DNA from: an uncultured Clostridia bacterium
GTDB lineage: Bacteria > Bacillota > Clostridia > UBA1381
Assembly (NCBI GenBank): GCA_947623955.1
Contig: CANQIP010000001.1
Span: 62,001-126,000, forward strand
Reading direction: 5' to 3'
DNA: 64,000 nt
The notes below the pieces were generated by a model. It worked only from the letters and a program-made list of their open reading frames with translations. It was not told the DNA's origin and made no database searches. The translations under genes and the position numbers were made by a program. Positions 19,384 to 61,814 of this stretch are shown one piece after another; positions within the stretch are counted from its first letter, which is position 1; each line of letters opens with the position of its first letter.

Positions 19384-19389
19384 AATTAC

Positions 19390-19678: not shown

Positions 19679-19747
19679 TAAATCCCGAAACGGCGAAAAG
19701 TGAATAAAACTGTTGACATTTCGGTAAAGGTGTGATATTATAATCAT

Positions 19748-19831: not shown

Positions 19832-19863
19832 GAGATTATGTATATAATCAAAGCCGGGGCTGT

Positions 19864-19965: not shown

Positions 19966-20052
19966 TTACCTCACCTCCTTTCGGAGATTTGTTTGCCAAT
20001 ACACTAATTATACCCCACCATGTCGCATTTTGTCAATAAAGCACACAAACGC

Positions 20053-20090
20053 AAAAAAAAAGAACGGTTCAAATGAACCGTTCTTTTATA
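20053..20090. terminator. Terminator downstream of the SLH gene
   Basis: AAAAAAGAACGGTTC...GAACCGTTCTTTT perfect hairpin with A/T flanks, 30 bp beyond the SLH stop. Confidence 0.88.
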
Positions 20091-39299: not shown

Positions 39300-39388
39300 G
39301 GACAAGACTCCTTTCTTTCTATCGAGCTCTTGTTCCATGATTAGATAGCATATTTATTATATCATAGAATAAGAGTGTTTTCAATAGC

Positions 39389-39592
39389 TTATACTATCCG
39401 ACGACCGATATTTTCTATATATTGTTCGAGACTTCGCCGAGGTATAATGTATTTACGTTTCATTCTTTTGTTACCTATGTCTTGATTTTGCAACAACTTA
39501 TACGCTGTGTTGCGTCCTATGCCAAGGACAGCGCATATGTCGTCAACGCTTATAATATCGCCAAGCGATGATAGCTTTTTTCGTGGACGCAT
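39389..39592 (-). CDS. Excisionase-like HTH protein
   Basis: 67-aa MerR/HTH_17-type DNA-binding protein (SVDDICAVLGIGRNTAYKLLQ, then the wing KYIIPRRSLEQYIE). Position directly upstream of int suggests an Xis that controls directionality. A regulator role is also possible. Confidence 0.82.
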   Translation of the reverse strand: MRPRKKLSSLGDIISVDDICAVLGIGRNTAYKLLQNQDIGNKRMKRKYIIPRRSLEQYIENIGRRIV

Positions 39593-39665
39593 TTAAATCA
39601 TCTCCTAAATTAAAATTATTTTATTCTAAAATAGCACCGTTTTATGTAATGTGCATGCTGAAAAA

Positions 39666-39700
39666 AATAAAAGGCGAAGTTTCCCTCGCCTTTTGTCTTG
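39666..39700 (-). terminator. Terminator of the lysis module
   Basis: A minus-strand AAGGCGAGGGAAACTTCGCCTT hairpin followed by a T-rich stretch, 12 bp after the amidase stop. Confidence 0.8.
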
Positions 39701-39711
39701 TTCATCGTATA

Positions 39712-40476
39712 TTAATCGTACAGTTTCGCACGATCATTCGCTACGAATATGCGCAGCATATCCATTGTCAGCCCAAGCCGACCCTTATCGTCGCCGACTA
39801 AAATATGCTTGTCCATGAGTTTTTGCACTGTCGGCTTCGCCCACTCCGGCATATTGTCGTCCATATAGTCATAAATCATCGGTTTTAATCCGTCGATTTC
39901 ACTTTTGAGCTCTTCATATTGTGTCACCGTTAATTCCTCACTTTCCGTATTTATTACCGTCTGCCCCGTTATCGCCTCGGCGATTGCCGCCGCGACCGTC
40001 TCCGCGCCCAGCTTGTGATACAGGTCTACGTCCGACGCGCTGTCCACAAAACACACCTCAACGAGCATAGCCTTAGCATCTGTGTGACGTATAACATAAA
40101 GCGACGACCCGTACTTTACGCCGCGATTGGCAAATCCCAGCGCATGGAGTTTGTCACACACCGCGACCGCCTCGGCGTGTTTTGTACCGCCGTATGTAAA
40201 TACTTCCGTGCCTTTACCACCGCCGGAATTGAAATGTATTGAAACGAACAAATCCAAAGGCTGCGCATTTGCCATACGTACTATTGCAGAGAGGTTTGCG
40301 CTCGTGCTGTTCGCATAATCATTTGTGCAGTCGTACACCGTATGACCTGCGTCTGCTAAAATCTTTTCAAGCTTTAAGCCAACATTGCGCGTCTCTTCGC
40401 TCTCGTCGATGATACCGACTGCGCCGCACCCGGGTATGCCGCTTACTGTATGACCGCAGTTAATACCTATTTTCAT
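39712..40476 (-). CDS. Phage endolysin, N-acetylmuramoyl-L-alanine amidase
   Basis: 254 aa. Amidase_3 domain at about 1-170, with zinc-ligand contexts NCGHT, DESEE, VSIHFNSG and a catalytic Glu in MLVEVCFVDS. A C-terminal ~55-residue module (PEWAKPTVQKLMDKHILVGD...MLRIFVANDRAKLYD) resembles an SLH-like wall-binding repeat. No signal peptide, so holin-dependent release is expected. Confidence 0.92.
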   Translation of the reverse strand: MKIGINCGHTVSGIPGCGAVGIIDESEETRNVGLKLEKILADAGHTVYDCTNDYANSTSANLSAIVRMANAQPLDLFVSIHFNSGGGKGTEVFTYGGTKHAEAVAVCDKLHALGFANRGVKYGSSLYVIRHTDAKAMLVEVCFVDSASDVDLYHKLGAETVAAAIAEAITGQTVINTESEELTVTQYEELKSEIDGLKPMIYDYMDDNMPEWAKPTVQKLMDKHILVGDDKGRLGLTMDMLRIFVANDRAKLYD

Positions 40477-40477
40477 G

Positions 40478-40717
40478 TCATTTATCTCCTTTCAGCTCGT
40501 GCATGAAATCATCCGCCTTAATCGCCGCATCGGTAAAGCTGTTGTTCTTCCACCACGCAATCACCGCCGCGATAATCGTCCACGCCGTTGAAATGATCGT
40601 CGAAATATCGTCGTCGGCAATATTCAGCGGACTTATACCGAGCATCGCAAGCACCTGATTTATCAGTGCCAGCGCGAGAATTATTGTTCTGATTAACGTA
40701 CCCTTTGAGATTTTCAT
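40478..40717 (-). CDS. Phage holin (phi LC3-like)
   Basis: 79 aa with two hydrophobic stretches (IRTIILALALINQVLAMLG and STIISTAWTIIAAVIAWW), a short turn and a charged tail. It overlaps no gene but ends two bases from the amidase start. Forms the membrane lesion at lysis. Confidence 0.9.
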   Translation of the reverse strand: MKISKGTLIRTIILALALINQVLAMLGISPLNIADDDISTIISTAWTIIAAVIAWWKNNSFTDAAIKADDFMHELKGDK

Positions 40718-40738
40718 ATTAAATCACTCCTTCCGTTA

Positions 40739-41029
40739 TTACATACCTTTAATGTTATCCGGCATATGAGCTCCGACATTCAGATGCCGATTAAGCTTAT
40801 CGAGCGCGTCCTTACATGGTCCATTACAACCATGTTCGATCAGTCCTTCAAGTGCGCCTTTTAACCCATAGCATATTACTGTCAGTTCCTCATTCTGCCG
40901 TTTGTTAATTTCAACCTGCTGCTTATTTAACATGATTTGCTTATGGCAGAAAAAAGTAGCCCCGACAAGAGCTGTTACCGCTGTGAGCAGAGATGCCATT
41001 TTGATAATTGTGTCAACAGTTATATACAC
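40739..41029 (-). CDS. Small phage membrane protein, lysis-module hypothetical
   Basis: 96 aa from GTG 41029 (GGAGG 8 nt upstream). One N-terminal membrane helix (MASLLTAVTALVGATFF), then a helical/coiled segment and a conserved-looking tail, LKGALEGLIEHGCNGPCKDALDKLNRHLN. Similar small proteins accompany holins in clostridial phages. The function is unknown; a spanin-like or holin-modulating role would be speculative. Confidence 0.75.
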   Translation of the reverse strand: MYITVDTIIKMASLLTAVTALVGATFFCHKQIMLNKQQVEINKRQNEELTVICYGLKGALEGLIEHGCNGPCKDALDKLNRHLNVGAHMPDNIKGM

Positions 41030-41032
41030 TGT

Positions 41033-41200
41033 TTACTCCTCCCTACCGATTTCTGCCGTAACCTCGGCGTAGTCCTCTGCGGTCAGTCCGCCCGCCGCGA
41101 ATATGACGTCAACCTTTTCGAGCAGCGTGTCTTTGTCCATCTTACCCGCTGCTATGATTTTCTTTATCAGCCCATAAGAGCGTCCGTGTTTCTGTTCCAT
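41033..41200 (-). CDS. Small phage protein, XkdX-like (55 aa)
   Basis: ATG 41200 with AGGAGG 9 nt upstream. The sequence is helical (LIKKIIAAGKMDKDTLLEKV, then GGLTAEDYAEVTAEI), matching the small proteins encoded between tail fibres and holins in many Firmicutes phages (XkdX group and relatives). Its stop region contains the ribosome site of the next gene. Function unknown. Confidence 0.72.
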   Translation of the reverse strand: MEQKHGRSYGLIKKIIAAGKMDKDTLLEKVDVIFAAGGLTAEDYAEVTAEIGREE

Positions 41201-41217
41201 TGTGCTTTACCTCCTTC

Positions 41218-41607
41218 TTAAATTCCCAACTCAACCGCCGAAATGCGGCAGTCGAGGTCAAGCAAATATTCGTCTCTCGCCTCATCGAGTGACGCAATAT
41301 ACGCCTCCAAACTGCCGTACGCGGCAATCCGTGCAATCTCTTTCGCATGGTTGTCCGATGTAAGCTTTATGCCGTCCATCCAAGCGTACTTTGACGTATC
41401 GAGCGGCTCGTCCGAGATAAGCTCGTTAAGCTGATGTTTCGGGATAAGCTGCTCCGTCCACTCCTTGTAACTGTCGTCGTTGACGTAATACGTGTTCTCG
41501 TCGTAATCGGTTTTCTCCACGGTTTTATAATCGCGCACCACGATAACGCGCTTGTTCAGCCGAATACGGTTGTCGTTGTCTATCCAAAAATGATTTAAAA
41601 TATCCAT
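41218..41607 (-). CDS. Phage hypothetical protein downstream of the tail fibre
   Basis: 129 aa, GGAGG before ATG 41607. Compact N-terminal part (HFWIDNDNRIRLNKRVIVV) and helical C-terminus. Position just after a tail-fibre gene suggests a fibre-assembly or accessory protein. No family recognised. Confidence 0.7.
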   Translation of the reverse strand: MDILNHFWIDNDNRIRLNKRVIVVRDYKTVEKTDYDENTYYVNDDSYKEWTEQLIPKHQLNELISDEPLDTSKYAWMDGIKLTSDNHAKEIARIAAYGSLEAYIASLDEARDEYLLDLDCRISAVELGI

Positions 41608-41619
41608 CTCGCGTCCTCC

Positions 41620-43137
41620 TTAATACTGCAGATTGCTTGTGTTGATGCTGCCCGACGCTGCATTCATAACAGTCAAGCCGTTGTCATGCAGATTACGGTC
41701 AATGATGTGTTTCTTGTTCTGACCGTCAATATACACCGCCTGACCCGTAAACGTGTTGCCGGTCATATTTGTCGGGCACTGTAATATAATTTGACCCGCC
41801 GACGACGAACCTGACTCTTTGTGATTAAATTGGTTACCGGATATAGTACCCGCACGTAAGTACATCTTGTAATATTCGACATAATTACCTGTAAACGTGC
41901 CGCCGGGAACGGTTGTTGTTCCCGTATGATAAATAGTTGCAAATGCCTGTTCGTCAATATGTTTCATAATGATATGATTGTTGCTGATATTATAAATACC
42001 CTCGTAAACCAGATTGGCACGCCCATTCGCGTCCACATCATCGCCCATGGTAATATAACAATTACAAATTTGACCATAAGCACATTTATAAATGAAAGTA
42101 ACGTCCGAACCTGAAGAATCTGTATAGGCATTATTTATATTAAGGCGACAACTATCCACCAGCACATTTCCGTCAGCAATAATTCCTGTTACACAACCGT
42201 CAGAGACTACATGAGGAGCCATATCAACGGTACAGTTTATAAGGGTAACGTTATTTGTTGTTCGCCAAATTTCACTGTTATCTATGTATCCATTGCTATA
42301 ACCATTCATACGGAGGGTGCAATTGATGAAGATGGCACTCATACCTGTTTTTTGTGCCGTGGCAGTCCCGTATTTGAAATCAATACACAGATTTTTAAAT
42401 ACAACGGTGCCTCCATATCCATCTGATTGTGACTGACTATCCTTATGCTCAAATATTATAGCTGTGTCAGCTGATTGGTCGCTACCCTGCAATATTAAAA
42501 CTTTATTTGTTCTCACATCCGAATAGCTTATATGGTTAGTGCCCCTAAACAAATACGCTCCGCTCTCTGATGAAGAGAATTTTGCTACGGAACCCCACTT
42601 ATTCGCCGACACAATACGCCATGGCAACCCCGAGGTGATAGCTTTGTTCTGCACAGGATTTGTACTTGATTCGGATAGTACACTGTCTATGGTTGGGGTA
42701 GTGCCATCCTTACCCGCCGGTCCCTGATCGCCTTTCACGCCTTGTGCTCCTGCCGGTCCAGCGGGTCCTGCGGGACCTGTCGGTCCCTGTGGTCCGGCCG
42801 CTCCCTGTGCGCCTGTCGCACCCTTTATGCAGCCCTTGTACATCCATTTCGCGGTTGTGCCGCTGCCTGCCGTGGTACACTCATAAACGTTGCCGTTTGA
42901 TGTATTAAGGTACATATCACCGACCTTGACAAGCGGACAGCCGCTGTAACTGTTATTACTACCGCTTGTTGCCGTCATATCGGTACCGGAATACCATTTA
43001 CTTCCGTTCATGTTCACGTTGCCGGTACCGGTACCGACAAATAACTCGTTCGTATCAGTCGTATATCCCGGTTCACCCGAAGAAAGTGTCGGAAGTTTGG
43101 ATTTAACACCACGTCTTAACTGTATTCTATTAGCCAT
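41620..43137 (-). CDS. Tail fibre/appendage protein with collagen-like stalk and beta-helix
   Basis: 505 aa. The N-terminal ~45 residues resemble the tail-attachment domain found in phage receptor-binding proteins ([29 protein letters not shown]). A collagen-like Gly-X-Y stretch covers about 106-146 ([13 protein letters not shown]). The C-terminal ~300 residues have the short, Asn/Gly/Ile-rich repeated strands of a right-handed beta-helix, such as host glycan-binding or depolymerising fibres. No catalytic residues can be identified by eye. Confidence 0.82.
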
Positions 43138-43151
43138 ATGTAACTCCCTCC

Positions 43152-43724
43152 TTAAAACGTGCCGCCGTCAACCGTGCTGTTTGAGTCGAGCTTCGCGTTC
43201 CACTTGGTCTTTTCCGCGTCGGTCACAAAACGGTGCGTCGTGTCCTCGGCTATGATTGACGCGTCATGCTTTGCGGGGTGCGTGTAGTTATTGGCGTTCT
43301 CCGCAATGCCGGAGAGCTTTTCTTTTTCTTCATTTGTGAAATCAGCCTCGGACAAGCCTTTGCCCGCTATCTTGTCGACCTTGTTTCCGATTGCGGTATT
43401 TAGCGTATTAACAATGCCCTCGTTCTTTTGCAGCTCGTCCGCCAACTCCTTGAGCGTGTCGAGCGTCGTCGGAGCGCCGTTTACGAGTTCGCCAATTTTC
43501 TCTGCTATGTGCTCATCTGCATAACGATTCGCCTGTTCAAGCGCATTCTGCACAGCACTCGCAACGTCAGCCGTTACGAGTATCTTGGCACCTTCTGCGC
43601 CGCCTACATAAAGCTGCGCAGACTTCTTTTCAGCGTCATAAGCAATAGCAATTTCGCCTTCCTGAAGTGATAGACTGCCTAAGTCAGTTGCCAGTCCTCT
43701 TTTTAATAAAATTACATTTGCCAT
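43152..43724 (-). CDS. Tail fibre-associated phage structural protein
   Basis: 190 aa from ATG 43724 (AGGAGG 7 nt upstream). The N-terminal MANVILLKRGLATDLGSLSLQEGEIAIAYD parallels the start of the neighbouring fibre, so it probably docks at the same site. A helical section (TLDTLKELADELQKNEGIVNTLN) and a C-terminal fibre-like YTHPAKHDASII...TKWNAKLDS follow. Confidence 0.8.
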   Translation of the reverse strand: MANVILLKRGLATDLGSLSLQEGEIAIAYDAEKKSAQLYVGGAEGAKILVTADVASAVQNALEQANRYADEHIAEKIGELVNGAPTTLDTLKELADELQKNEGIVNTLNTAIGNKVDKIAGKGLSEADFTNEEKEKLSGIAENANNYTHPAKHDASIIAEDTTHRFVTDAEKTKWNAKLDSNSTVDGGTF

Positions 43725-43764
43725 TCTTCTACCTCCTAAATGCAAATATTTTATTGTTAGCGTT

Positions 43765-44520
43765 TTATGTGTTACTCAAAGATACTATATACGATTCAAA
43801 TCCTCCACAATCGAACGGTTCGAGTTCCGTCGCGTCAAAGCCTCCGCCATCAAGAGGAGGACCGTCCTGTGCCACACCGAACCATCCACCGTCATATATA
43901 TGCAAGCCGATCAGTTCCCACAGCATACTGAATTGTTGTTCCGAGTCACGAAGATGTTCAAGATATTCTTCGAGCGTAACCGCACCTTCTGAGCCATCAT
44001 CCCATTTTCGGACACAGTCAGCGTCAATGCCGTCGAGTATGTCCTTGTTTTCATGCTCGTGCGCCTTTTCCTCGACCGGTTTAAAACGCTCGTCAAGCTC
44101 TTCTCTTGCAGCGGTTTCATCATCGATTCGTGTACCGAGTTTCGTATCACCGTCGATACGAGCGCGCCCTTCTTCGTTGATTCGAGTTCCTAACGCATCG
44201 TCATCGGCTTTCCTTGTCTCTGCCTCATCGTCAATACGCTTGCCAAGAGCAGTATCGGCGTCAGTTCGGGCAGTCGTCTCGTTCGTTATACGCGTCGAAA
44301 GAGCGGCGTCCGCTGAAGAACGATCGCTTACTTCCCGTTTCAGTCGTGTATCAAGATCGGTAAGCGACCGATCGTGACTTTCGTCCTTAGCAGTGCTGCG
44401 GTTTACTTCCGACTCGAGAGCGTCGTTTACGGCTCTAATTGAATCGTGCAGGGCGCTGCGCATATCTCGTCCGTATATGGCAGTTTTTATCGTATTTAGA
44501 AACGAAGTAATGTCAGCCAT
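43765..44520 (-). CDS. Coiled-coil tail fibre protein
   Basis: 251 aa from ATG 44520 (AGGAGG 9 nt upstream). After a short N-terminal domain, residues about 50-160 form a charged repeat with a period near 19 residues (DADTALGKRIDDEAETRK / DDDALGTRINEEGRAR / DGDTKLGTRIDDETAAR), a predicted trimeric coiled coil. The C-terminus is Gly/Asp/Phe-rich. A tail or baseplate fibre stalk is likely. Confidence 0.8.
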   Translation of the reverse strand: MADITSFLNTIKTAIYGRDMRSALHDSIRAVNDALESEVNRSTAKDESHDRSLTDLDTRLKREVSDRSSADAALSTRITNETTARTDADTALGKRIDDEAETRKADDDALGTRINEEGRARIDGDTKLGTRIDDETAAREELDERFKPVEEKAHEHENKDILDGIDADCVRKWDDGSEGAVTLEEYLEHLRDSEQQFSMLWELIGLHIYDGGWFGVAQDGPPLDGGGFDATELEPFDCGGFESYIVSLSNT

Positions 44521-44917
44521 TTTGATTTTCCTCCTCGTTTTCGGTGAGCATCCAGTCATTTTCGAGGATTTCTTCACCGCTTAATTCGCCCATGACGTCT
44601 CGGTAGTTGAGTGTCATTATACGGATTTCGTTCGTAACCGCCCCTATCGGCTTTAATTCACGCATAAATTCATCGAATCGCGGGGAATCGGGCTTTACCG
44701 ATATGGTGCCTAAGTCTTTCCCATTGGTCCCGATGTCCGGCTCTCCGTACTTTTCGATAAGTTTATGCCTAAAGTCGAAATATTCGGTTAGAGCATCGCT
44801 GATTATCCGCGTATTGCGCGCGGCAACATAGCCGATTTTGTCACATCGTTTAAGCAGCGGTTTGAGTCCGCTTAACCTGTACTCCCACTCGGTGTTTTCC
44901 AGTTTTACATTCTTCAT
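44513..44917 (-). CDS. Phage protein, DUF1617-like
   Basis: 134 aa from ATG 44917 (GGAGG 8 nt upstream). Largely helical (LKPLLKRCDKIGYVAARNTRII, YFDFRHKLIEKYGEPD). It resembles small DUF1617-type proteins found between tail tip and fibres in Firmicutes phages, but the match is by style only. It overlaps the next gene by 8 nt. Confidence 0.65.
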   Translation of the reverse strand: MKNVKLENTEWEYRLSGLKPLLKRCDKIGYVAARNTRIISDALTEYFDFRHKLIEKYGEPDIGTNGKDLGTISVKPDSPRFDEFMRELKPIGAVTNEIRIMTLNYRDVMGELSGEEILENDWMLTENEEENQNG

Positions 44918-45160
44918 AGACTTCACCTCCTGAACATTTTGGCATGAAATGATGTATCTTAAAAAGAGAAAACAGCTGAATATGAACGGAAAGAGGGACA
45001 CTACGGTGATGGGGTAAAGACGGGGTAACCAATATGCCGCGTCAAGTGAAGACGATTTTTAAGTCACCATAATCCAAACCGTTCGATTCGTCCTTTCGAG
45101 CGGTTTTCTCTTTTCCGCTCATGTTCAGCGGTTTTCTCCTTATAAAGTATTTACTGCACG

Positions 45161-45191
45161 AAAAAAGAGCCCTAATTCAAGAGCTCTTAGC
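45161..45191 (-). terminator. Terminator of small membrane-protein unit A
   Basis: Minus-strand AAGAGCTCTTGAATTAGGGCTCTTTTTT. The 243 bp from here to the next gene (44918-45160) contain a further hairpin (around 45076-45106) and no convincing gene. Confidence 0.75.
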
Positions 45192-45204
45192 GGTACTTAA
45201 TATT

Positions 45205-45519
45205 TCATTGTTTTGCCGAACACTTTGCAACACAATTACAAATCACAATGGAGCATATAACGAGTGTTGCCGCACCAACTGTAATGTAGACAATTCTCTG
45301 TCTCTGTCTTTGTCTTTGTCTTTTGTTGTATTCATTGAGTGCTTGCTCACATCGTTCATCAGAAATATCGGTGTTACAGATAATCTTTACAAAGTTATCA
45401 TCTGCGTTTCTTATATTGGAGCATATTTCGGCACAAATATTACTTGCCGCCTCTGCGACCGAACCGATATATGTCTCGTTTTCTTTCTTTGCAACCGCGA
45501 TCATTTTATCCTTTGACAT
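45205..45519 (-). CDS. Small single-pass membrane protein, moron unit A
   Basis: 104 aa from ATG 45519, GGAGG 7 nt upstream. Soluble N-terminus, then an Arg/Gln repeat (KRQRQRQRQRIVY) and one C-terminal membrane helix (VGAATLVICSIVICNCVA) ending in Cys/Lys, i.e. a tail-anchored layout. The frame extends upstream to ATG 45630, also with a ribosome site. That extension contains a consensus promoter at 45544-45572, so I prefer the internal start. No family recognised. Confidence 0.6.
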   Translation of the reverse strand: MSKDKMIAVAKKENETYIGSVAEAASNICAEICSNIRNADDNFVKIICNTDISDERCEQALNEYNKRQRQRQRQRIVYITVGAATLVICSIVICNCVAKCSAKQ

Positions 45520-45543
45520 ATTAACACCTCCGTATACGTCCAG

Positions 45544-45586
45544 ATTATACCACGGAAGATGTATGCTGTCAAGTTCAAACGATACT
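45544..45586 (-). promoter_or_regulatory. Consensus promoter of unit A with upstream element
   Basis: Minus strand TTGACA (45567-45572), 17-nt spacer, TATAAT (45544-45549). GGAGG follows the -10 after 12 nt. The element CAAACGATACT (plus orientation, 45576-45586) lies 3 bp beyond the -35, exactly as in unit B. Confidence 0.8.
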
Positions 45587-45652
45587 CTGTTCGGGAGTAA
45601 CATCCTCAATTTCTCTCTCCAGTTAGCCATTTTCTTATCTCCTTTCATACAT

Positions 45653-45678
45653 AAAAAGAGCCCTTGTTAGGACTCCTT
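45653..45678 (-). terminator. Terminator of unit B
   Basis: Minus-strand AAGGAGTCCTAACAAGGGCTCTTTTT hairpin just past the unit B stop. Confidence 0.7.
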
Positions 45679-45696
45679 ATAGCTGATTTTATTTAG

Positions 45697-46056
45697 TTAT
45701 GCAGCCTTTTTAGCGTTATAAATTCCGTAACAGGCGATTCCGGATGATAACGCCGCAACGCCTAAAATAACAACTGTGATATATGGCGCTAACCTTATTA
45801 TGGTATCTTGACGAGCCATAAATCTCGCCTGACGATAATCCATCGACTTGTTGATCGCGGCAAGCGCCGCTGCACGGTCTTCGGGCGAAATCCCGTCAAT
45901 TTGTGCAATACTCGAAAGCTCCTTGAATTCTTCACGCTGAGTTGTTTCCGGCTCGCTGATTACAGCCTTTATGGTTGTTGATAATTCGCCGGCAGTCGTA
46001 ATGACCGCATCGGCTGTGCTGGTCTGTTTCTTTATAAGTTCATTTTTCTTACCCAT
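45697..46056 (-). CDS. Small single-pass membrane protein, moron unit B
   Basis: 119 aa from ATG 46056 with GGAGG upstream. Helical, Thr/Glu-rich N-terminal domain and one C-terminal membrane helix (YITVVILGVAALSSGIACYG) followed by KKAA. Same topology as unit A but no clear sequence identity in the body. The longer frame to ATG 46164 would run through its promoter (46081-46109). Function unknown; superinfection exclusion or toxin-like action are only guesses. Confidence 0.6.
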   Translation of the reverse strand: MGKKNELIKKQTSTADAVITTAGELSTTIKAVISEPETTQREEFKELSSIAQIDGISPEDRAAALAAINKSMDYRQARFMARQDTIIRLAPYITVVILGVAALSSGIACYGIYNAKKAA

Positions 46057-46070
46057 AAAAGCACCTCCTT

Positions 46071-46123
46071 CTATACTAACAGTATAGTGCGGTTCTTCGA
46101 CGTTGTCAACCCCAAGCGATACT
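46071..46123 (-). promoter_or_regulatory. Consensus promoter of unit B with perfect dyad on the -10
   Basis: Minus strand TTGACA (46104-46109), 17-nt spacer, TATACT (46081-46086). CTATACTAACAGTATAG (46071-46087) is a perfect 7-3-7 palindrome covering the -10 and probable start point, a likely repressor site. CAAGCGATACT (46113-46123) lies 3 bp beyond the -35, matching unit A. Confidence 0.8.
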
Positions 46124-46180
46124 TTCTTTGGCATAAGAAATGATAATAACCTCTTTGCTTTCATATTTATCTCCTTTCTA

Positions 46181-46212
46181 AAAACAAAAGAGTCCTTGAA
46201 ATTAGGACTCTT
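46181..46212 (-). terminator. Terminator overlapping the end of the 49-aa gene
   Basis: Minus-strand GAGTCCTAATTTCAAGGACTC followed by TTTTGTTTTT. The stem starts in the last two codons. Confidence 0.8.
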
Positions 46213-46351
46213 CCTTTGATTGGTTTTTGGATAACGAGTTTATCCTATTTAAGTTTTCTATCATTATACGTTCCGCACGCTTTAAGTATAAGTATATACC
46301 CACTGCACTCGTGAACGCTCCTAATAAAAACGCTAATATAATCTCCGCCAT
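46202..46351 (-). CDS. Tiny membrane protein (49 aa) downstream of the XRE regulator
   Basis: ATG 46351, AAGGAG 9 nt upstream. One N-terminal helix (EIILAFLLGAFTSAVGIYLYL), then a basic/polar tail ending KEES. It lies 35 bp after the XRE gene and shares with the 47359-47553 gene both the preceding spacer (AAAATCACATTTCC TTTTATGAAAGGAG) and the last codons plus terminator. Function unknown. Confidence 0.65.
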   Translation of the reverse strand: MAEIILAFLLGAFTSAVGIYLYLKRAERIMIENLNRINSLSKNQSKEES

Positions 46352-46386
46352 CTAAATCCTCTCCTTTCATAAAAGGAAATGTGATT

Positions 46387-46842
46387 TTAGCGTGACTTAA
46401 ATTCTTTTTCCGTCCAGAATTTTAAGGATTCAACATTTTTTGATACACTCCGCAATTCTTCTTGAATCTTTAGAAAATCCCGAATCTCATGTTCATCTAC
46501 AACACCATCCGAACTTATTTCAATTAACCGCTCCTGCTTTTTTTGCATAGAATTGAGTGATGCTATCATTGATAATACAATCTTTTCCAACTCGGTCTTA
46601 TCCACAGGCGATGCGTAGCGCATACCTATAGGGCATTCCTGCGTACAATACGAATTACATATCATCGGCTCATTATAAACTTCCGATAAGAGTAATACTT
46701 CTTCCGGATGAATAGGGAATTTGCCGTTTTCTATTCTTTCCAGTCTTGCCGGGTCAAGAGCGCTCCCTCTTTCAGATATAATATCGCATACGTGTTCTCT
46801 GGTTAAGCCTTTATCTTTTCTTAAGGATTTGAAAATGTTCAT
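46387..46842 (-). CDS. XRE-family HTH regulator with Cys-rich CPIG motif
   Basis: 151 aa. N-terminal Cro/CI-type HTH (FKSLRKDKGLTREHVCDII...LERIENGK), then the segment CNSYCTQECPIGMRY and a helical C-terminus (SMIASLNSMQKKQERLIEI). The Cys/ECPIG motif recurs in clostridial phage-type regulators and could bind a metal. Promoter TTTACA-17-TATAAT at 46883-46911. Divergent from the 47037 gene, with direct repeats between them. Probably the local switch of the cassette. Confidence 0.8.
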   Translation of the reverse strand: MNIFKSLRKDKGLTREHVCDIISERGSALDPARLERIENGKFPIHPEEVLLLSEVYNEPMICNSYCTQECPIGMRYASPVDKTELEKIVLSMIASLNSMQKKQERLIEISSDGVVDEHEIRDFLKIQEELRSVSKNVESLKFWTEKEFKSR

Positions 46843-46882
46843 GACTTGCGCGTATCCTCCACTTTAGTGCTTGATACTAACG

Positions 46883-46988
46883 ATTATACCATACCGTAAA
46901 TGCTTTGTAAAGATATGGCATTAGCATTTTGCACTTATTGTGAAAAACATCGCTTCATTTTGCACTTATTGCTATGGAGTATTACAAT
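46883..46988. promoter_or_regulatory. Divergent promoter region with 16-bp direct repeats
   Basis: Minus-strand promoter TTTACA (46906-46911)-17-TATAAT (46883-46888) for the XRE gene. Plus-strand promoter TTGCAC (46960-46965)-17-TACAAT (46983-46988) for the small gene. CATTTTGCACTTATTG occurs at 46925-46940 and 46956-46971, the second covering the plus -35: candidate XRE operators. Confidence 0.65.
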
Positions 46989-47036
46989 ATAATGGTATAT
47001 ACTCATATTAACCTAAAAGAGAAAGGAGGAATAAAA

Positions 47037-47237
47037 ATGAGAAAAGGTAATTACTCAGTAGAAGCCATAGTGTTAAAAGGTTCCTACAAAGCTGCTAAAG
47101 CAATCGCTAATCGAATAAAAGACGGTAAATTGAAAGTCAATTTATTTAAATCATCAATACATATTGTTGATAAAGATTATGGAACTATCACTTTAAACAT
47201 TAGCAGATTATTAAAAGCTTTGTGTGAACCCTCTTAA
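47037..47237 (+). CDS. Small basic protein divergent from the XRE regulator (66 aa)
   Basis: The only plus-strand gene in the prophage part. ATG 47037 with AAAGGAGG upstream. Lys-rich (SVEAIVLKGSYKAAKAIANR, DGKLKVNLFK), with a strand-rich second half. No family recognised. As the divergent partner of a Cro/CI-type gene it may be its antagonist or target. Confidence 0.62.
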   Translation: MRKGNYSVEAIVLKGSYKAAKAIANRIKDGKLKVNLFKSSIHIVDKDYGTITLNISRLLKALCEPS

Positions 47238-47278
47238 ACCTCATTTTTGTTTCTTTCATTCTCCTTTCAAAAAATATA

Positions 47279-47314
47279 GAAGCCCGTAACCGATATTCAA
47301 GTGTTGCGGGCTTC
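47279..47314 (-). terminator. Hairpin terminator
   Basis: A 12-bp GAAGCCCGTAAC/GTTGCGGGCTTC stem. On the minus strand it is followed by TATATTTTTT. It insulates the small plus-strand gene from minus-strand transcription. Confidence 0.6.
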
Positions 47315-47344
47315 GCTTTATATAATACACCTTATTCGAAAAGT

Positions 47345-47370
47345 AAAAGAGTCCATGTTTAGGACTCTTC
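47345..47370 (-). terminator. Terminator overlapping the end of the 64-aa gene
   Basis: Minus-strand GAAGAGTCCTAAACATGGACTCTTTTAC. It uses the same GAAGAGTCCTAA end as the 46202 gene. Confidence 0.75.
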
Positions 47371-47553
47371 TTCGAAATCATCATATGAATTTCCAACTCG
47401 TCGATTTCCCGCTCCGATGCCTACTTTGATTTTACCGTCTTTTCCGCCTATAGTTAATGTAGGATGTGCAAGTATTCCTATCCAATAACAAGCTGTTGCG
47501 ATAAACCACATAGAAATAGTTATTGCTTTACGACGAATTATTTTTTCTTTCAC
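47359..47553 (-). CDS. Small membrane protein (64 aa) downstream of the stalk protein
   Basis: GTG 47553 with AGGAG 10 nt upstream. A basic N-terminus (KEKIIRRKAITIS) precedes a membrane helix (MWFIATACYWIGILAH) and a Gly-rich then acidic tail ending FEEES. The spacer before it and its last codons plus terminator are copies of those around the 49-aa gene. Function unknown. Confidence 0.6.
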   Translation of the reverse strand: MKEKIIRRKAITISMWFIATACYWIGILAHPTLTIGGKDGKIKVGIGAGNRRVGNSYDDFEEES

Positions 47554-47596
47554 ATGAATCACACTCCTTTCATAAAAGGAAATGTGATTTTCGCGT

Positions 47597-48184
47597 TTAG
47601 TACACAGTGGGACCGGGAATGGGCGCAGAAGGAACGGCTATACCAAATAAATCGTCACCTTCTTCGACTCTTTTTATGGAAATATTCTCATCTGTATCAT
47701 TGGTGCTCAACCTAACCGATTGTGTAGCCTCATCGTAATCTACTCCGAAATCGAATTTTTCACCGAGTTCACGAAGTTTAAAATAATTATTTCCGTCGAT
47801 GTTATAAGCTGCCATTTCTATTTCAACTCCATCCTTAATGATTTTAGAGCTTGTCGCCGACGTTTCCTTCATGTCTGAACCAACTGCCGTCATTTCTCCG
47901 CCAACCGGTGTATAAGACTGTCTGCTCGTCAAAACTATAGAATCAAGGGCGCCATTATAAGTAACATCAAACTGCTTTTCAGTTCCGTTCAGCATATAAG
48001 CTATATCACGGAGCTTAAAATAGTTGTATCCGTCGATATTATAAGTAGTAACTTTTACTTCTGTGCCATCCACCAAAATGATTGATGCGGTCGGAGTCGC
48101 GTTAATCGCAAATGTAGTAACAGTTGGAACTGCCATAAGCATAATTGCTGTCATAAACGCAAACATTTTTTTCATAATAATCAC
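47597..48184 (-). CDS. Secreted copper-amine-oxidase-like stalk-domain protein
   Basis: 195 aa. Signal peptide about 1-25, then two related stalk halves: VDGTEVKVTTYNIDGYNYFKL and KDGVEIEMAAYNIDGNNYFKL, each followed by RDIAYML/RELGEKF. Such domains are common on clostridial surfaces and are not expected in a phage tail operon. Likely a lysogenic-conversion gene. Own promoter upstream. Confidence 0.8.
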   Translation of the reverse strand: MIIMKKMFAFMTAIMLMAVPTVTTFAINATPTASIILVDGTEVKVTTYNIDGYNYFKLRDIAYMLNGTEKQFDVTYNGALDSIVLTSRQSYTPVGGEMTAVGSDMKETSATSSKIIKDGVEIEMAAYNIDGNNYFKLRELGEKFDFGVDYDEATQSVRLSTNDTDENISIKRVEEGDDLFGIAVPSAPIPGPTVY

Positions 48185-48204
48185 TCCTTTATCTAATTAA
48201 TTTT

Positions 48205-48233
48205 ATTATATCACAAATGATATGTTAATACAA
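48205..48233 (-). promoter_or_regulatory. Promoter of the stalk-protein gene with overlapping palindrome
   Basis: Minus strand TTGTAT (48228-48233), 17-nt spacer, TATAAT (48205-48210). ATATCACAAATGATAT (48208-48223) is a 6-4-6 palindrome touching the -10. Confidence 0.6.
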
Positions 48234-48244
48234 GACAGAATTTC

Positions 48245-50869
48245 TTAAGAATAAGAAACTATAAACCCTTTTTTTATCATTACGCGTCTGACCATACTCG
48301 TATCGATGGTTCCATCCGATTTTATAGAACCGGACGACAACAATATACAATCACCGATAATACCATTAATGACACCTACTGTATCAGAATCTATCCAAGC
48401 ATTAACTAAGTTAAATCCGCTCAAATCAGTATTACCGTGTATGGTAAGTGTATCCTTTTTATATATATCGTGCGTTTTGGTTGAGTACACCAATAAAGCC
48501 TTATATGTATCACTTGTTTTGTTCTCTTTCGCCGCCCAAACAATAGCCGATGCATCCGGTTCAAGTCTGATAGCAAGATTTTTTAAATCTGAATCCTCTT
48601 TCCACTCTGAGGTTCCTATATAACCCACATTGGTCAGAACTCCCGAAATAGTATCTTTCAAATGGAGTCCCCATCCGTCAAGAGTCATCTTATCGTTATG
48701 AATGTCGCTTGCTGTGATTGTAAATCCACCGATATTACCCTTTTCAGCATGAAGATTACCGCTATCATCAACGTAAAAAGCACTGTCCCAGAATCTATCA
48801 GATGCTTTCGAACTCGTAGTACCGAGTGAAATCGAGCCGTTTCTTATCATAAGACTTCCGCCTTCACAGTATTCAGTCTTTGTCACATAATACTCTTTGC
48901 CTTTTTCATCTTCATACCTTTTATCGTATGTTACATCGCATCCCTTATAGTTCAGGTTCCATATAACGTTTCCGTCTTGTGATACAAGTACGCCCGTCCT
49001 TACCCTGTCGGCGCTCATATGCCCGACAGTTATACGGTTCGCTACGATTTGCCCGTCCATGGTCATTCCGACATTCAGGCTGTATTTGTTCAGCCAATTC
49101 CCTATCACATCGTCTTTTTCGGGAGGGTCGGGGTTTTCTGTCTCATGTCCGTCATCGTCCACATACTTCGTATAATGTCCGAGACCGTTCGCGTTCCATA
49201 TCCAGAAATGGTCGGAATGTTTATAGTCTCTGCCCGATGATACCACAAGTGCCTCGGAATGTCTGCCACCTTCCGTATCGGTTACGTAAGTAACATAGCC
49301 GTTCGTTTTCTCGCGCAGGATTTTATCCGCGTCCGAACGAGCTTGTAAAAGTACGGAAGACTGCGGCGACTGGAGCTCTGCCGTAACCGAGCTTATAGCC
49401 CCCGACAGCAACGATGTCTGCTTTGGAGTAAATGACACCGTCTTTTGAAGCGTGTATTTCGCGCTCTCCGGTTTGTCAAGCTCTATGCTCAGTTCCATAA
49501 CCGTAAACAGCGTATTCATACCGTGAGGGTACGATATACACCGCATACGGTCAAGAATTTTTACCGGCTCTGCGTATTCGGACAAATATCTCAAGTCCAC
49601 AGCCGAAATCTCAAGCACCATCTTGTCAAACTGCTGCTCCTGTATATAATCGCGGACATTTTTGATGAGCTCGATAGAGTCCACAGCGTCGCTGAAATCG
49701 ACAACCTGTTCCGAATGACCGTAAATATCTTTAAGACAGTAAAGCTCGCCTTGCTCGTTTGACAGATAGACAACAGCGTATGCTCCGTCCGTCTCTATTT
49801 TGGACACAACAACTCCATTTTGATTTTCCGAGTAATCGAGAAATTCAACAACAATTTTCTTTATTTTGTTGTCCTCGGTAAATTCGTTTTGGTTCGTATC
49901 AACGCGAATTGTTACCTTGCCGTCCACCGTTTCGAGCGGGATATAGCCGTTATTATCCTTCTTGTATTTGTATACGGGATTTCCTTCCTCATCATGTTCT
50001 ATGTCGTAAACATATATGAGGTTATTGTTCTCATCATGCTCGAGATTACCCGCCTTGTCTCGGAGATAATGTCCCCATTCGCTTTCTTCGAGCATATCCT
50101 CGTAAGGTATGTCCGAAAGGGTCACGTACTTGTTAAACGCGTCCGAATTTTCGTCCGCCTCGGTTTCAAGCTGCATTCCGCGCGGTATCAGAACCGTTGC
50201 TAATTCGCTTAAGTCCCAGTTCTTAGTAAAATCAAGAAGATTTGTGCCAAATCGTATCGTTTGAGTGTTTTCGCTAAGCTCGGCATCTTCCTTAACAAAA
50301 CCTATGTACTTCTTGCCGTTAATCTTCTCGATCCGTATATGACACTGGAATCGCTCGATAATGTTTTTATTTATACAATCAAGTGTTGTTTCGTAATCGG
50401 TAACGATTTCCGGCAGAATTTCGTCGTAATTGTATATGCGCGTTTCTCCGATATGGAATTTATACCTTTCGTTATCAAACCGCTTGTTGTGCTCGTCCAA
50501 GACAGCCTCAAGAAATTTCCCGACGGTTATTCCTTCCTCATGCTCATCGTCGAAGTATTTGTGCTGCGGTTGGATAGTGTCATTCAGATACGCGAGCTCG
50601 CCCTCGCAGGTCAGGACGCGGTTTTTCCAGAAGTCCAGCTTCTCGGATATAATACGTCCCGACCATACCTCAACATTATCGCGGTACACCACTATTTCCG
50701 AGGTGCGCCGCTCCAGTATGTCATATCCGGCGTTTCCTGAGGGAAGTGTTATTTCAAGCGAACCGGCGGAATTGTCGCCTATGGTAAGCTTCGGGCTTGC
50801 TGCTTTTCGGCTTTCGGTTGGAGACACGTCACTGTAAATTACAATGCCGTCGCCTTTTATGCTGTACAT
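48245..50869 (-). CDS. Phage tail tip protein (Tal/prophage endopeptidase-tail type)
   Basis: 874 aa. N-terminal gp27-like hub domains (SLEITLPSGNAGYDILERRTSEI, VWSGRIISEKLDFW), middle PRGMQLE region, then a long C-terminal extension with short fibre-like repeats (GNIGGFTITASDIH, LTIHGNTDLSGFNL). It directly follows Dit, the standard order Tmp-Dit-Tal. It probably forms the tail tip hub; no peptidase residues identified. Confidence 0.87.
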   Translation of the reverse strand: MYSIKGDGIVIYSDVSPTESRKAASPKLTIGDNSAGSLEITLPSGNAGYDILERRTSEIVVYRDNVEVWSGRIISEKLDFWKNRVLTCEGELAYLNDTIQPQHKYFDDEHEEGITVGKFLEAVLDEHNKRFDNERYKFHIGETRIYNYDEILPEIVTDYETTLDCINKNIIERFQCHIRIEKINGKKYIGFVKEDAELSENTQTIRFGTNLLDFTKNWDLSELATVLIPRGMQLETEADENSDAFNKYVTLSDIPYEDMLEESEWGHYLRDKAGNLEHDENNNLIYVYDIEHDEEGNPVYKYKKDNNGYIPLETVDGKVTIRVDTNQNEFTEDNKIKKIVVEFLDYSENQNGVVVSKIETDGAYAVVYLSNEQGELYCLKDIYGHSEQVVDFSDAVDSIELIKNVRDYIQEQQFDKMVLEISAVDLRYLSEYAEPVKILDRMRCISYPHGMNTLFTVMELSIELDKPESAKYTLQKTVSFTPKQTSLLSGAISSVTAELQSPQSSVLLQARSDADKILREKTNGYVTYVTDTEGGRHSEALVVSSGRDYKHSDHFWIWNANGLGHYTKYVDDDGHETENPDPPEKDDVIGNWLNKYSLNVGMTMDGQIVANRITVGHMSADRVRTGVLVSQDGNVIWNLNYKGCDVTYDKRYEDEKGKEYYVTKTEYCEGGSLMIRNGSISLGTTSSKASDRFWDSAFYVDDSGNLHAEKGNIGGFTITASDIHNDKMTLDGWGLHLKDTISGVLTNVGYIGTSEWKEDSDLKNLAIRLEPDASAIVWAAKENKTSDTYKALLVYSTKTHDIYKKDTLTIHGNTDLSGFNLVNAWIDSDTVGVINGIIGDCILLSSGSIKSDGTIDTSMVRRVMIKKGFIVSYS

Positions 50870-50872
50870 GTC

Positions 50873-51742
50873 TTACAACCTCCCTATCCTAAAATCTATC
50901 GAAACCTTACCAACACCTTGGAAATACAATTTATACGGCGTCGTCTGACCGTAAAATATGAAATCAGGCGCAAAAGTTGTTCCGGTTTTGAATATCTGAG
51001 ATATGTCGATGCCGAGATACTCATTCACAAAGCGTATTTCTATGCCTTTCTCCGACTCAACGGTTATGGTCGGTGAAATCGGGACTCCGCCCCAGAATTG
51101 TTTCATGGAATTCTCGTCACGTACATATGGCGGAAACATCATCTCGGTAAAGCCGTTCGGACTGTTTATAACAATATCACTGCAAGTAGCATCCCAAATA
51201 ATGCCTGTTTCGAAGTTGAACGGGTCCCATAACCACGGTCCCGTCGACGATGTTATACTCCATTTAAACGGATTTACTTTGTATCCGATAATAATAACTG
51301 ACCATGTATCGTCGGATTTCCATTCGTCAACGGAAAAACGTCCTTGATAGAACCATAACGGATCATCATCGAGAACGGCGCATAAGCATCTCCCGTGCAG
51401 ATACTCCATGATTTCGGAATATCTTTCAGCCCAACGCTCAACTCGCTTATTTTCCAGCACAAGCTTACCGTTTTTTTCGTAATGGTTCATAACCCGAAAC
51501 TCGAAAGAACCGGTGCGGTTATTATATGTGGGGTACTTTGTAAGCGCCTCTGACAGGTCAAGAGCGCCGTTTCCTCCCGGAATATCAATATAATTTTCCT
51601 TAACCTCCGGGGGAACAAACACGGGGCGTGAAGTGGGGAGTATGTGCCAGTTATCCCACGTGTTCGTATGCTCTACTTGCGGATTAGCATACGATTTTAC
51701 AATATCCTCCGGATTATTATAAAACGTTATCGACTGCCTCAT
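50873..51742 (-). CDS. Distal tail protein (Dit)
   Basis: 289 aa. Siphovirus tail-component family: N-terminal ring-forming domain (YNNRTGSFEFRVMNHYEK, YLHGRCLCAVLDDDPLWFYQGRF) and a C-terminal galectin-like domain (LYFQGVGKVSIDFRIGRL). Lies between tape measure and tail tip; its ATG overlaps the tape-measure stop. Confidence 0.9.
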   Translation of the reverse strand: MRQSITFYNNPEDIVKSYANPQVEHTNTWDNWHILPTSRPVFVPPEVKENYIDIPGGNGALDLSEALTKYPTYNNRTGSFEFRVMNHYEKNGKLVLENKRVERWAERYSEIMEYLHGRCLCAVLDDDPLWFYQGRFSVDEWKSDDTWSVIIIGYKVNPFKWSITSSTGPWLWDPFNFETGIIWDATCSDIVINSPNGFTEMMFPPYVRDENSMKQFWGGVPISPTITVESEKGIEIRFVNEYLGIDISQIFKTGTTFAPDFIFYGQTTPYKLYFQGVGKVSIDFRIGRL

Positions 51743-54700
51743 TAAACTCCCCTCCTGCTCATATTTGCTCTGATTCCCAAACTTCTGTCCATTTCCGGCG
51801 TGATTTCTCCCACCAGCACTCCGGTATCCATAACAACCTGTAATCTGGTCACCTTGTCAACCAAGTCGCTGAAATCTCGTTTAAGTCCGTCTATGGCGTC
51901 TGCCACTTTCTCATTTGACGCCAAATTAGAATCTCTAAGCCCTATAATGGCGTCGTTAATCTGTGCGTATTTTTCATTTTGATTTTTATTCGCAAAGCTT
52001 TCGCCCAACCGCAGACTTCGTTGTGCGGCAAACGCTCCGTCCATGTAATGTAAGCCTTCGTTTACATCCGTAAGGTCGAGAACGGGTCTTATTGTGGGGT
52101 TTGAATCCGGATTGTCGTCTAAAGCCTTGTAAATACGTCCTATGGTGTCTCCTATGGTGTCTATCGCGCTTTGTCCCAACGATTCCGTAGTATCTTCGAC
52201 TGCGTTTATACAGCCTCCGATACCAACAATCAAGCCCTCACCGATATATCCGCCTATTACAGCGAACACCTTTGAAGGCGAGTGGATACCTAAGGCTTCT
52301 TTAAGTGCGTTTATCGCCTCAGAGCTAAGACCTATAATTTCTTCTACAAATCTCGGTTTTGCCTCGCTCACGCCTTCGGTTAATCCGTCAACCATTTGCT
52401 GACCGACTTCATTATAGCCCGCTTGCTTAAGAATGCCTTTAACTTCGGTATCCATTTCGCGAAACTCTCCGACAGTGTCTGTTCTTATGATGCCGACTTT
52501 TTTTTCGAAGTTCGTCTTAAGCGTGCCGAGTTGTTCGTCTATATCGGCATTCATTTCCACGAGTTCTTGCTTCATATCGTCTTTGAGACCCTGTATCTCG
52601 TTATCGCATTTTATTCGCATATCTTCGAGCTCATTCGTTGCCCTGTCGGATGCTAATTCATGTTTATCCGACCATAGATTTGCATATTGCGACAGCTGCG
52701 AATCCGTCATGGAATTAAGGGCTTTTATCTCGGCGTATGCGGAGGGACCCATTTCCTGAAGTTCCGCGATAAGTGCTTCGTTCAAGCCACGTCCGGCAAG
52801 CTTATTGATTTCGTTGTTCCAATCCTCAAAATATGCGACTTGATCTTGGAGATTTCTCATAAGAGAGGACGCCTTTACGCTTTTATCGCGGTCGACCTCA
52901 TCAAACAATCCGTATGCGTCATAAAGAGCCTGCGCCCTTGATTCAAGTGCGTTTTCGTATTCGTCGTTTACTTCCTTGATTTTATCTTCATACTTTTCCT
53001 CAATCTCTAAGCGCTTATCGGCTCTTTCTTTCTCGAGGTCCTCGCAATCTTTGATATATTGCTGCTGGGCGTCGTATATATTTTTTTCTATCTCGTATAC
53101 TTTTTTATCCCATTCTATACGTTCCTTCGAGCCCTTTTCATAGCGCTGCTGAACACGTATAGCCTCCGATAATTCTTCTGCCAATCCGCGCTCACGACCA
53201 AATGTGTCACGGAGCGAAATCCACTGTTCGGAATCGGCAAGCTGCGCATCTCTGAGCATCGAATACAAATATGCATTCTCTTTAACCGCTTTTTCATATA
53301 TGTCAGACCCATATTGTGAATTGGCAAGGATTGATACGTTAGCCTTTATTGCATTTTGGATAAGATCCGTATTGCCTTCCATCTGCTTATGGATGCTGTC
53401 TTCCAACTCAAACCATTTAGCCAATTCTTCTCGCCATGTTCCGTATAATTCCAGAGCTTTCGGTGAATCCTCACCATAAATCTTAGCTATTTCTCTGTAT
53501 GCAACTCCCGCATTCCATGCGATCTCGTTTTGCTTTTTATATTGCTCGTTAAGCATTTTCAACGTTGCAACACTTTTGTCCGTTTCCGTTATATCGGACC
53601 GCTTTTCGAGTAAGCTTATTTCTTTTTCGAGAAGATCGATACCATTTTGATAAAGCTCATTTTTCTCGATTATAGGGTCAATGATGTTCGCTTGAGCAGC
53701 CTCAAGTAATGAAGCGGAAAGCTCCTCAAATTCAATTTCTTCCTCAAGTAATTTCTTTTGAGCTTCATATGCGTATTCACTGCTCTCTCCAAGATACTTG
53801 ACCGTCTGCTGATATTCAGCGGTAGCAAGCTCTATTCGCTGTGTTTGCCGTTCAACTTGACTTTGCATAAGCTCGAGATTTTTTGTGCTTTTCTCAAGCG
53901 CTCCGGCATTCGGATTGCGCAGACCCCACAGTTTATTGGTCAATTCGGCTATATTGTTTGTAAGTTCGATCTTGTCCAGCTCTTTTTTAAAGGCGTCGAC
54001 GATGTTTTGAGCTTTTTTCTCTGCGGCTTCTTCCGCGCTCATATCCGATTTTATACCTTCCGCCACACCTTTTACAATGTACTGTCCAACTTCGTCACGC
54101 ATGACCTTGGACGGTGACTGTATACCAAGAGCATCCTTAGCCGCATTAAGCGCGCTCGTAGCCATTTCCACAGCGGCGTTGATAACTGACGACTGACCGC
54201 CGGATATTCCGGATGCCACACCAGAGGCAATATTGGCGCCAACGCTCTCGAACCCACTGACTTGACTCTCAACTCCACTTTTAGCAGCGTTAGCCAAATC
54301 AGTACCGGCTGTTTGAATTTCGCTATTCTTATTGCGAAGACCATTAAGCACTGCCGATGCCACAAGTTCTCCCGCTTCGGTAGCTTGCGGTGCATAACCT
54401 TCTACAGACGATATAAAATTCGCCACCATGTCCTTACCGACTGTTTCCATACCGCTCATATCTATCTTAGATAAGTCGGATAGGCTATCTTTTATGGACT
54501 GTATAACACCTGATAGAGATTCGGTTGATAAACCTGATACGCCATCAATAAAATCTTTCAATGAGTTTTTAAGCGTATCCAGTCCGAATGCTACATCGGA
54601 AAGATTGCCTCCGTCCCCAATGTTTTCACCGTCAAATTCCGCCAGTGACCTGATAATTTCGGTTAGTTTTTGTATTCGTGTAACGGCGGATTCATCTATA

Positions 54701-60342: not shown

Positions 60343-60737
60343 ATCCTAATAACCTCCTCCCACAGTTTTTTTGCGATTTCATCGAATATAGGACGCAAGG
60401 CAGGATTTATGTAATCTTGTCCTTGAACATAGCCGCCTGTTCCGGTTCCGTGTCCATACTGCAAAATAATAGCAATAGAAACTCCTTGATTGATATTCGA
60501 GTTGCAAAATATTAGCTCCGCGCTGTTTTCACCCTCTTTTATCTCATAATACCAAGATGAGGCTGTTTTCCCCGAATCAATCGGCGTTGCGGCTGCCAAC
60601 GCGGTTACTCCTTCTTGCCCATATTTATTCAAAATTTTTAGTTTTATTGCTTTCCTTAATTTTTCGAAATATTTTGTAGCTTTGGAGAAGTCGCCTTTAT
60701 GCCTGAAACTAATTGTGCAGCTTAGTGTAGGTTTCAT
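60339..60737 (-). CDS. HK97 gp10-like tail completion protein
   Basis: 132 aa from ATG 60737 (AAGGAG 7 nt upstream). Typical gp10 pattern: ALAAATPIDSGKTASSWYYEI and a C-terminal IILQYGHGTGTGGYV...INPALRPIFDEI. Usually encoded nearer the head-tail connectors; here it sits between the chaperones and the tape measure. Confidence 0.82.
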   Translation of the reverse strand: MKPTLSCTISFRHKGDFSKATKYFEKLRKAIKLKILNKYGQEGVTALAAATPIDSGKTASSWYYEIKEGENSAELIFCNSNINQGVSIAIILQYGHGTGTGGYVQGQDYINPALRPIFDEIAKKLWEEVIRI

Positions 60738-60756
60738 GTTAAATCTCCTTCCATAG

Positions 60757-61299: not shown

Positions 61300-61323
61300 T
61301 TTCTCTCCCTCCTCATTTTCAAT

Positions 61324-61740: not shown

Positions 61741-61814
61741 GATTAATTTTCTCCTTTCAAAAGTAAAAAGGGGCGAAAACCATGCTTGGAAATCGCCCCC
61801 TATCGCTTATTGCA

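Follow-up and report, generated by a model that had tools for sequence, protein, structure and literature searches.

A probable moron array with reused control parts between the tail-tip and fibre genes of a Clostridia prophage

Introduction

Moron elements of temperate phages are exemplified by gp15 of HK97; the classic example is a single gene. They are defined as extra genes with their own promoter and terminator and a different G+C content that are expressed in the lysogen (in part after PMC6469090, PMC7067206 and PMC3952083). The subject of the present report is an island of seven genes (45161–48233) in the tail operon of a prophage of an uncultured Clostridia bacterium. It lies in a stretch of 64,000 nucleotides (assembly GCA_947623955.1, contig CANQIP010000001.1, positions 62,001 to 126,000), referred to below as the window, in which all positions without a locus name are counted.

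In lambdoid phages, the genes lom and cor (phi80/N15) are found between the tail-tip gene J and the side-fibre gene. Cor of phi80 and N15 inactivates FhuA (PMC11436027). In T4-like phages, repeated promoter and terminator parts beside small genes, the promoter early stem loops (PeSLs), are said to mediate gene shuffling (PMC4503421). Superinfection exclusion is given as a known role of prophage envelope proteins (PMC3952083, PMC10883804, PMC6832061); the first of these describes Ltp of TP-J34, a small envelope lipoprotein that mediates superinfection exclusion and is encoded in the lysogeny module. No title describing an array such as the present one was met in the open-access part of the literature searched.

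Results and Discussion

Insertion site and gene content

The seven genes that the original prediction, made from the sequence alone, had placed between the tail tip and the fibre side are present. They are bounded upstream by Tal, a tail-tip/endopeptidase tail protein (48245..50869, minus strand; Prophage_tail, 1.9e-8; phrog_3558 tail, 4.4e-60), and downstream by a phrog_1401-like tail-operon protein (44513..44917, minus strand; phrog_1401, 3.9e-4, and alignment with relatives). Read from Tal, the order is: secreted stalk-domain protein (47597..48184, minus strand; 195 aa from GTG or 192 aa from ATG at 48175); small single-pass membrane protein TM67 (47359..47562, minus strand); divergent basic protein of 66 aa (47037..47237, plus strand; net charge +8); XRE-type regulator with the Cys cluster CNSYCTQECPIG (46387..46842, minus strand); small single-pass membrane protein TM49 (46202..46351, minus strand); membrane-protein modules W2 (45697..46164, minus strand; leader start 46164, in-frame second start 46056) and W1 (45205..45630, minus strand; leader start 45630, in-frame second start 45519). 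One clear hydrophobic segment was found in each of the four small membrane proteins (maximal 19-residue Kyte-Doolittle value 1.75–2.52). W1 and W2 are paralogues (W2 against W1, E 0.001).

The gap between Tal and the phrog_1401-like gene was measured in 28 distinct records, these being loci with both genes on one strand, after redundant loci had been merged by hand; the Tal-alignment matches in viral contigs were the best 80 of 99. The gap was −10 to 119 nt in 26 records, some of them closely related; it was 3328 nt in the window and 2437 nt in genome G020. The latter (contig C65, CANQYQ010000065.1) belongs to the uncultured Clostridia bacterium isolate 'Lapin-015__bin64', of the same family and another genus. 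The cassette was sought at the same place in other clostridial prophages, as had been proposed, and a similar block was found in this one relative. Scans of viral contigs with single sequences of the regulator, of Tal and of the phrog_1401-like protein gave no relatives; Tal and phrog_1401 alignments found some. The stalk alignment gave two loci in viral contigs, in other context, and a search of genome contigs with a two-row Tal alignment returned the already known contig CANQYQ010000065.1 as its sole match.

Between the window and the relative block (locus L021 of G020), identity is 65% for Tal, 68% for the stalk protein (L021:2485-3048) and 45% for the phrog_1401-like protein. The order in L021 is: stalk gene; 70-residue membrane gene (TM70) behind a Shine-Dalgarno hairpin; plus-strand gene, which has a strong promoter and differs from the basic-protein gene of the window; and three W-type modules in tandem, G3, G2 and G1. 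W1 matches L021:768-1214 at 3.8e-12, and one L021 protein matches both W1 and W2. No XRE gene was found in the L021 block, and TM67 has no BLAST similarity to its positional counterpart there.

The G+C content of the island is 37.5%, against 46.5% at 39400-45160 and 42.8% at 48240-62000; that of the L021 block is 37.9% against 47.3%. The predicted moron island is supported by the 26 of 28 records in which the site is empty, by the lower G+C, by promoter and terminator signals of its own (below) and by the homologous block that another genus carries at this place. The term moron fits on the three features tested, namely insertion between neighbours, own signals and base composition, and the block is very probably a moron array at a site common to two genera. 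As in morons, the genes stand between what are neighbours in relatives, with signals and a base composition of their own, and expression in the lysogen would be expected. Unlike the classic one-gene moron, the island comprises five units, in which control parts are reused and paralogues stand in tandem. Like lom and cor it follows the tail tip and precedes the fibres, and known products of the lom/cor site act at the host envelope. As one of the Clostridia, the host would be of the Gram-positive type and have no outer membrane, unlike the hosts of lambdoid phages, and the likeness is one of relative position.

Promoters and terminators

The seven genes form five transcription units, and a terminator-like hairpin was found after each of the five by pattern scan and folding, in line with the five terminators predicted. 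The claim of at least five consensus promoters was slightly overstated: four are good, and the fifth, on the plus strand in front of the basic protein, is weak (9/12). The four, all on the minus strand, are: the promoter inside the W1 leader (45544..45572), TTGACA-17-TATAAT with TG, 12/12; the promoter inside the W2 leader (46081..46109), TTGACA-17-TATACT, 11/12; the XRE-gene promoter (46883..46911), TTTACA-17-TATAAT with TG, 11/12; and the stalk-gene promoter region (48199..48233), TTAACA-17-TAAAAT (48228-48200, 10/12) together with a consensus extended −10, TGATATAAT (48213-48205). An extended −10, TGTTATAAT, stands in the same gap before the stalk counterpart in L021.

At the loose cut-off of 9/12, 25 promoter-like sites were counted at 44800-48600 against 13.4 ± 3.6 in shuffles; at 10/12, four sites were counted against 1.7 expected (P 0.1), an excess that is not significant. 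Sites of at least 11/12 numbered three in the island (45572, 46109, 46911) against 0.155 expected (P 0.001, 1000 Markov simulations); these three in 3.07 kb compare with one, antisense, in the 19.5 kb of late region on both sides. Terminator-like sites in the pattern scan numbered six against 2.4 ± 1.5 in shuffles.

Four of the terminators belong to one family, AAGAGYCC-loop-GGRCTCTT (45165, 45656, 46188, 47347), which has four members in L021 as well. The minus-strand terminators of W1 (45165..45188), W2 (45655..45678) and TM49 (46214-46186) were reported by the pattern scan; that of TM67 (47347-47369, minus strand) was missed there and was recognised by sequence family and fold, so that the scan reports three of the four on this strand. 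The hairpin after the plus-strand gene (47279..47314, plus strand; minimum free energy (MFE) −21.2, z −4.7) is terminator-like and unrelated to the family. When the plus strand of the window was searched with four 8-base forms of the terminator arm, six of seven matches fell inside the island; a whole-genome search with the TM49 form (up to 3 mismatches) gave the TM49 site as sole match. No Rfam match was obtained at 44800-48600 up to E 0.1. These signals would allow expression of the island units in the lysogen, and it is on them that this claim rests.

Reused control parts and coupled junctions

A 33-nt junction with a Shine-Dalgarno hairpin occurs twice on the minus strand, from stalk to TM67 (47564..47596; MFE −16.6, z −4.0) and from XRE to TM49 (46361..46393; MFE −9.7, z −2.6). 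The two copies are 97% identical and the genes on either side of them are different. The stalk-TM70 junction of G020 folds at −14.8 kcal/mol (z −2.6); shuffles folding as well as the natural sequence numbered 0/200 (stalk-TM67), 3/200 (XRE-TM49) and 2/200 (stalk-TM70). The hairpins begin at, or just past, the stop codon of the first gene, and at all three stalk- or XRE-to-membrane-gene junctions the second gene has its Shine-Dalgarno base-paired within the hairpin. Between the window and G020 the sequence of the hairpin arms has changed and the pairing is kept. The junction hairpins are interpreted as a means of translational coupling.

The gene ends are written inside the terminators (the last codons of TM67 within 47347-47369; the C-terminal KEES-stop of TM49 within 46214-46186), which accounts for the EES end common to TM67, TM49 and TM70. 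Control parts are common to the modules more than protein sequence is, and this is a new feature of the array. PeSLs, reportedly the subject of Arbiol 2010 and Comeau 2014, are similar in that the same control part stands beside different genes, here the 33-nt junction at two gene pairs and the terminator family at four places. Unlike PeSLs, the island belongs to a temperate phage with host-type promoters, the parts repeated in it comprise, besides a hairpin junction, a terminator family with Shine-Dalgarno blocks, and the promoter of a W module lies inside the reading frame.

W-type modules

W1, W2 and G1 begin with a leader of 36–37 codons. Each leader opens with a Shine-Dalgarno and ATG of its own, continues in frame to another Shine-Dalgarno and ATG, and contains a promoter (W1, 12/12; W2, 11/12; G1, 11/12). 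Residues D, Y and GG, common to the three leaders, are what the −35, the −10 and the Shine-Dalgarno give in translation; three more common residues, P12, V15 and P25, lie outside these signals. The leader frame is open in 3/3, and the two other forward frames carry 1–5 stops. Selection on the leader as protein is favoured by these open frames and by the shortened modules G2 and G3, in which a leader-type start is still in frame with the core; differences by codon position, at 19, 15, 19 (W1/W2), 15, 10, 18 (W1/G1) and 17, 15, 14 (W2/G1), show no clear skew to the third position.

From this arrangement it would seem that a short form is made in the lysogen and a long one when transcription reads through. 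Since a terminator precedes each leader of the window, uninduced cells would make mostly the short form. More speculatively, and with considerable doubt, a W-type module may be a built-in life-cycle switch: a short membrane protein would be made in the lysogen, and late read-through of the tail operon would give a longer form with an N-terminal extension of 36–37 residues and a different activity.

The same two starts could be read otherwise, W1 and W2 being late-stage membrane proteins that come for the most part from tail-operon read-through and tune lysis in the manner of two-start holin/antiholin pairs. The strong Shine-Dalgarno at both starts, in one frame, in all three leaders would suit such a role, as would the small single-pass products and the orientation of W1 and W2 along late transcription. 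The terminator before each window leader and the strong promoter within it argue against it, and holin and endolysin candidates, as read from the list of open reading frames (ORFs), are situated elsewhere (39712-41029); lysis tuning is considered quite unlikely.

Stalk and membrane proteins

According to the original prediction, none of the products matches a known family. This was incorrect for the regulator (below) and for the stalk protein, which has a signal-peptide-like start and matches Cu_amine_oxidN1 of Pfam (E 2.6e-6; 27.8 bits, above the curated cut-off of 24.2); it holds for the other five, which gave weak matches or none. For the small membrane proteins nothing lay above the curated cut-off in Pfam or NCBIfam, and matches in PHROGs and PADLOC were weak only; TM49 matches phrog_12535 (0.0036) and PetL (0.011) weakly. 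The stalk profile gave no match to Protein Data Bank (PDB) sequences at E 0.01.

A tblastn search of 50,697 phage records, with E values up to 1 allowed, found no membrane module, and neither did two pattern-based, and therefore weak, scans of viral contigs. With the membrane-module alignment, 25 of 95 genomes of the order reached E 1; values below 1e-8 were given by the window genome and G020 only, where the match lies in the homologous prophage, and the other 23 ranged from 7.5e-4 to 1. In a class sample of 391 genomes the match was confident in the window genome only, and five others were at E 3.6e-4 to 7.1e-4; G020 was not among the matches of this sample, presumably because it was not drawn. 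The surroundings of the match in G242, one of the five, show no like architecture.

These distributions bear on a host-fitness role, in which the stalk and membrane proteins would alter adhesion, stress response or the cell wall and have no part in defence against phages. Apart from its own gene, the stalk protein has matches at 12 places in the host genome, one with E 9.1e-26 and the remaining eleven, about 50 residues long, with E 3.3e-5 to 8.1e-4; since stalk-type domains occur elsewhere in the host genome, the stalk gene looks taken from host stock. The failure to obtain a convincing defence-family match (below) also agrees with a fitness role. The membrane modules, in contrast, have no host relatives, their confident matches being confined to the window genome and the G020 prophage as listed above, and the host-fitness reading is held to be unlikely, though less so than lysis tuning.

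XRE regulator and basic protein

The regulator matches phrog_6499 over residues 2-147 of 151 (E 3.8e-33). Two exact copies of CATTTTGCACTTATTG, candidate operators, are present between the divergent promoters (46925..46971; copies at 46925-46940 and 46956-46971). Genome-wide, exact copies occur only here, with one further site at 1 mismatch, so the XRE protein most likely acts locally. A copy of the XRE gene, 92–94% identical, was noted in a host of the same genus (locus L022, G013:C31, 1773-2217); it is split over two frames, its first 11 residues are unmatched, and it comes directly after a serine recombinase gene.

The basic protein is predicted to be alpha-beta-beta-beta-alpha (AF2 from a single sequence, five models; pLDDT 72 for the best, 47–63 for the others). 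The fold search gave no confident match; HicA-like entries appeared at weak Foldseek values (E 0.24–0.26, viral library), no Pfam match lay above the cut-off, and nothing among PDB sequences fell below E 0.26. XRE regulator and basic protein could together form a toxin-antitoxin pair or a lysogeny switch with the membrane genes as passengers; such a regulatory or addiction module is judged improbable, slightly more so than any of the alternatives above.

Proposed function

The explanation preferred here is that of a moron array whose envelope proteins act in the lysogen. A single site in the tail operon would have received small cassettes, whose own promoters would be active when the remainder of the operon is silent. 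The stalk protein would lie outside the cell; translation of TM67 and TM49 would be opened by the ribosome ending on the preceding gene; the XRE regulator would act locally on operators of its own; and W1 and W2, in their short forms, would each be held in the membrane of the cell by a single C-terminal segment. At the envelope these proteins may hinder DNA entry of other phages (superinfection exclusion), and duplication and divergence of modules would alter which phages are blocked. To judge from the sequence, the island codes for envelope proteins that the lysogen would make, and these probably change the host-cell surface. Superinfection exclusion as such is the likeliest of the functions considered, at somewhat less than an even chance; for the explanation as a whole, the chances seem about even. 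The island proteins, as predicted from the genes, are like Ltp in being small envelope proteins of a prophage; unlike that lipoprotein of a lysogeny module, they are single-pass proteins encoded in a tail operon, and no exclusion family was matched.

Several findings weigh against this explanation. Completeness of the window genome is 87.6%, and a single relative of the array was found, so that the case for conservation rests on two loci. Of 14 loci read with regulators of phrog_6499 type, 10 have repressor, recombinase or replication genes nearby (L006, L007, L008, L011, L012, L013, L015, L016, L017 and L018; not so L004, L005, L009 and L014), and because of these neighbours the island XRE protein may have a role in lysogeny control. 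The modules G2 and G3 of G020 have no inner promoter. The AF2 model of W2 is poor (pLDDT 50, three sequences), and W2 weakly matches a tail-protein PHROG, phrog_76 (E 0.01), which, if real, would fit a virion part. A PADLOC search with 10 proteins (7 of the island, 3 of L021) gave no convincing defence match (best, LmuA, E 0.015), this library not being a catalogue of exclusion proteins.

Prophage setting and side observations

The window contains the late end of the prophage, read leftward. Roles were assigned from protein sequence and gene order to the tape measure (51742-60342), the distal tail protein (50873-51742), the fibre proteins in the late region beyond the phrog_1401-like gene, and the integrase (38157-39338). 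An ORF of 26 codons (45042..45122, minus strand) stands between the island and the phrog_1401-like gene; within it, on the plus strand at 45075-45125, a strong hairpin is followed by a T-rich stretch (z −4.1). In four empty Tal/phrog_1401 junctions of 102–119 nt (L041, L049, L051, L057), an ATG-started frame of at least 36 codons is open to the end of the stretch read.

An open frame of 716 codons antisense to the tape-measure gene (55550-57700) is probably a by-product of tape-measure repeats and codon use. A tandem repeat of period 358 nt (19336-20057; 245 nt at 97%, 112 nt at 88%) is located between a transaldolase-like gene and a large SLH-domain surface-protein-like gene (as read); promoter-like sites are present in each copy on both strands (plus, 11/12; minus, 12/12 with an 18-nt spacer).

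Conclusion

It is difficult to recognise from sequence which genes of a prophage function in the lysogen. At the tail-tip/fibre site of this group of Clostridia phages, an array with fast-changing membrane proteins is present in 2 of 28 records; what goes beyond the ordinary in it is the array of shared control parts and the in-frame promoters. If the units are expressed in the lysogen, their products could be listed as candidates for exclusion, and the array would serve as a natural test of whether two proteins, one for each life cycle of a phage, can come from a single gene.

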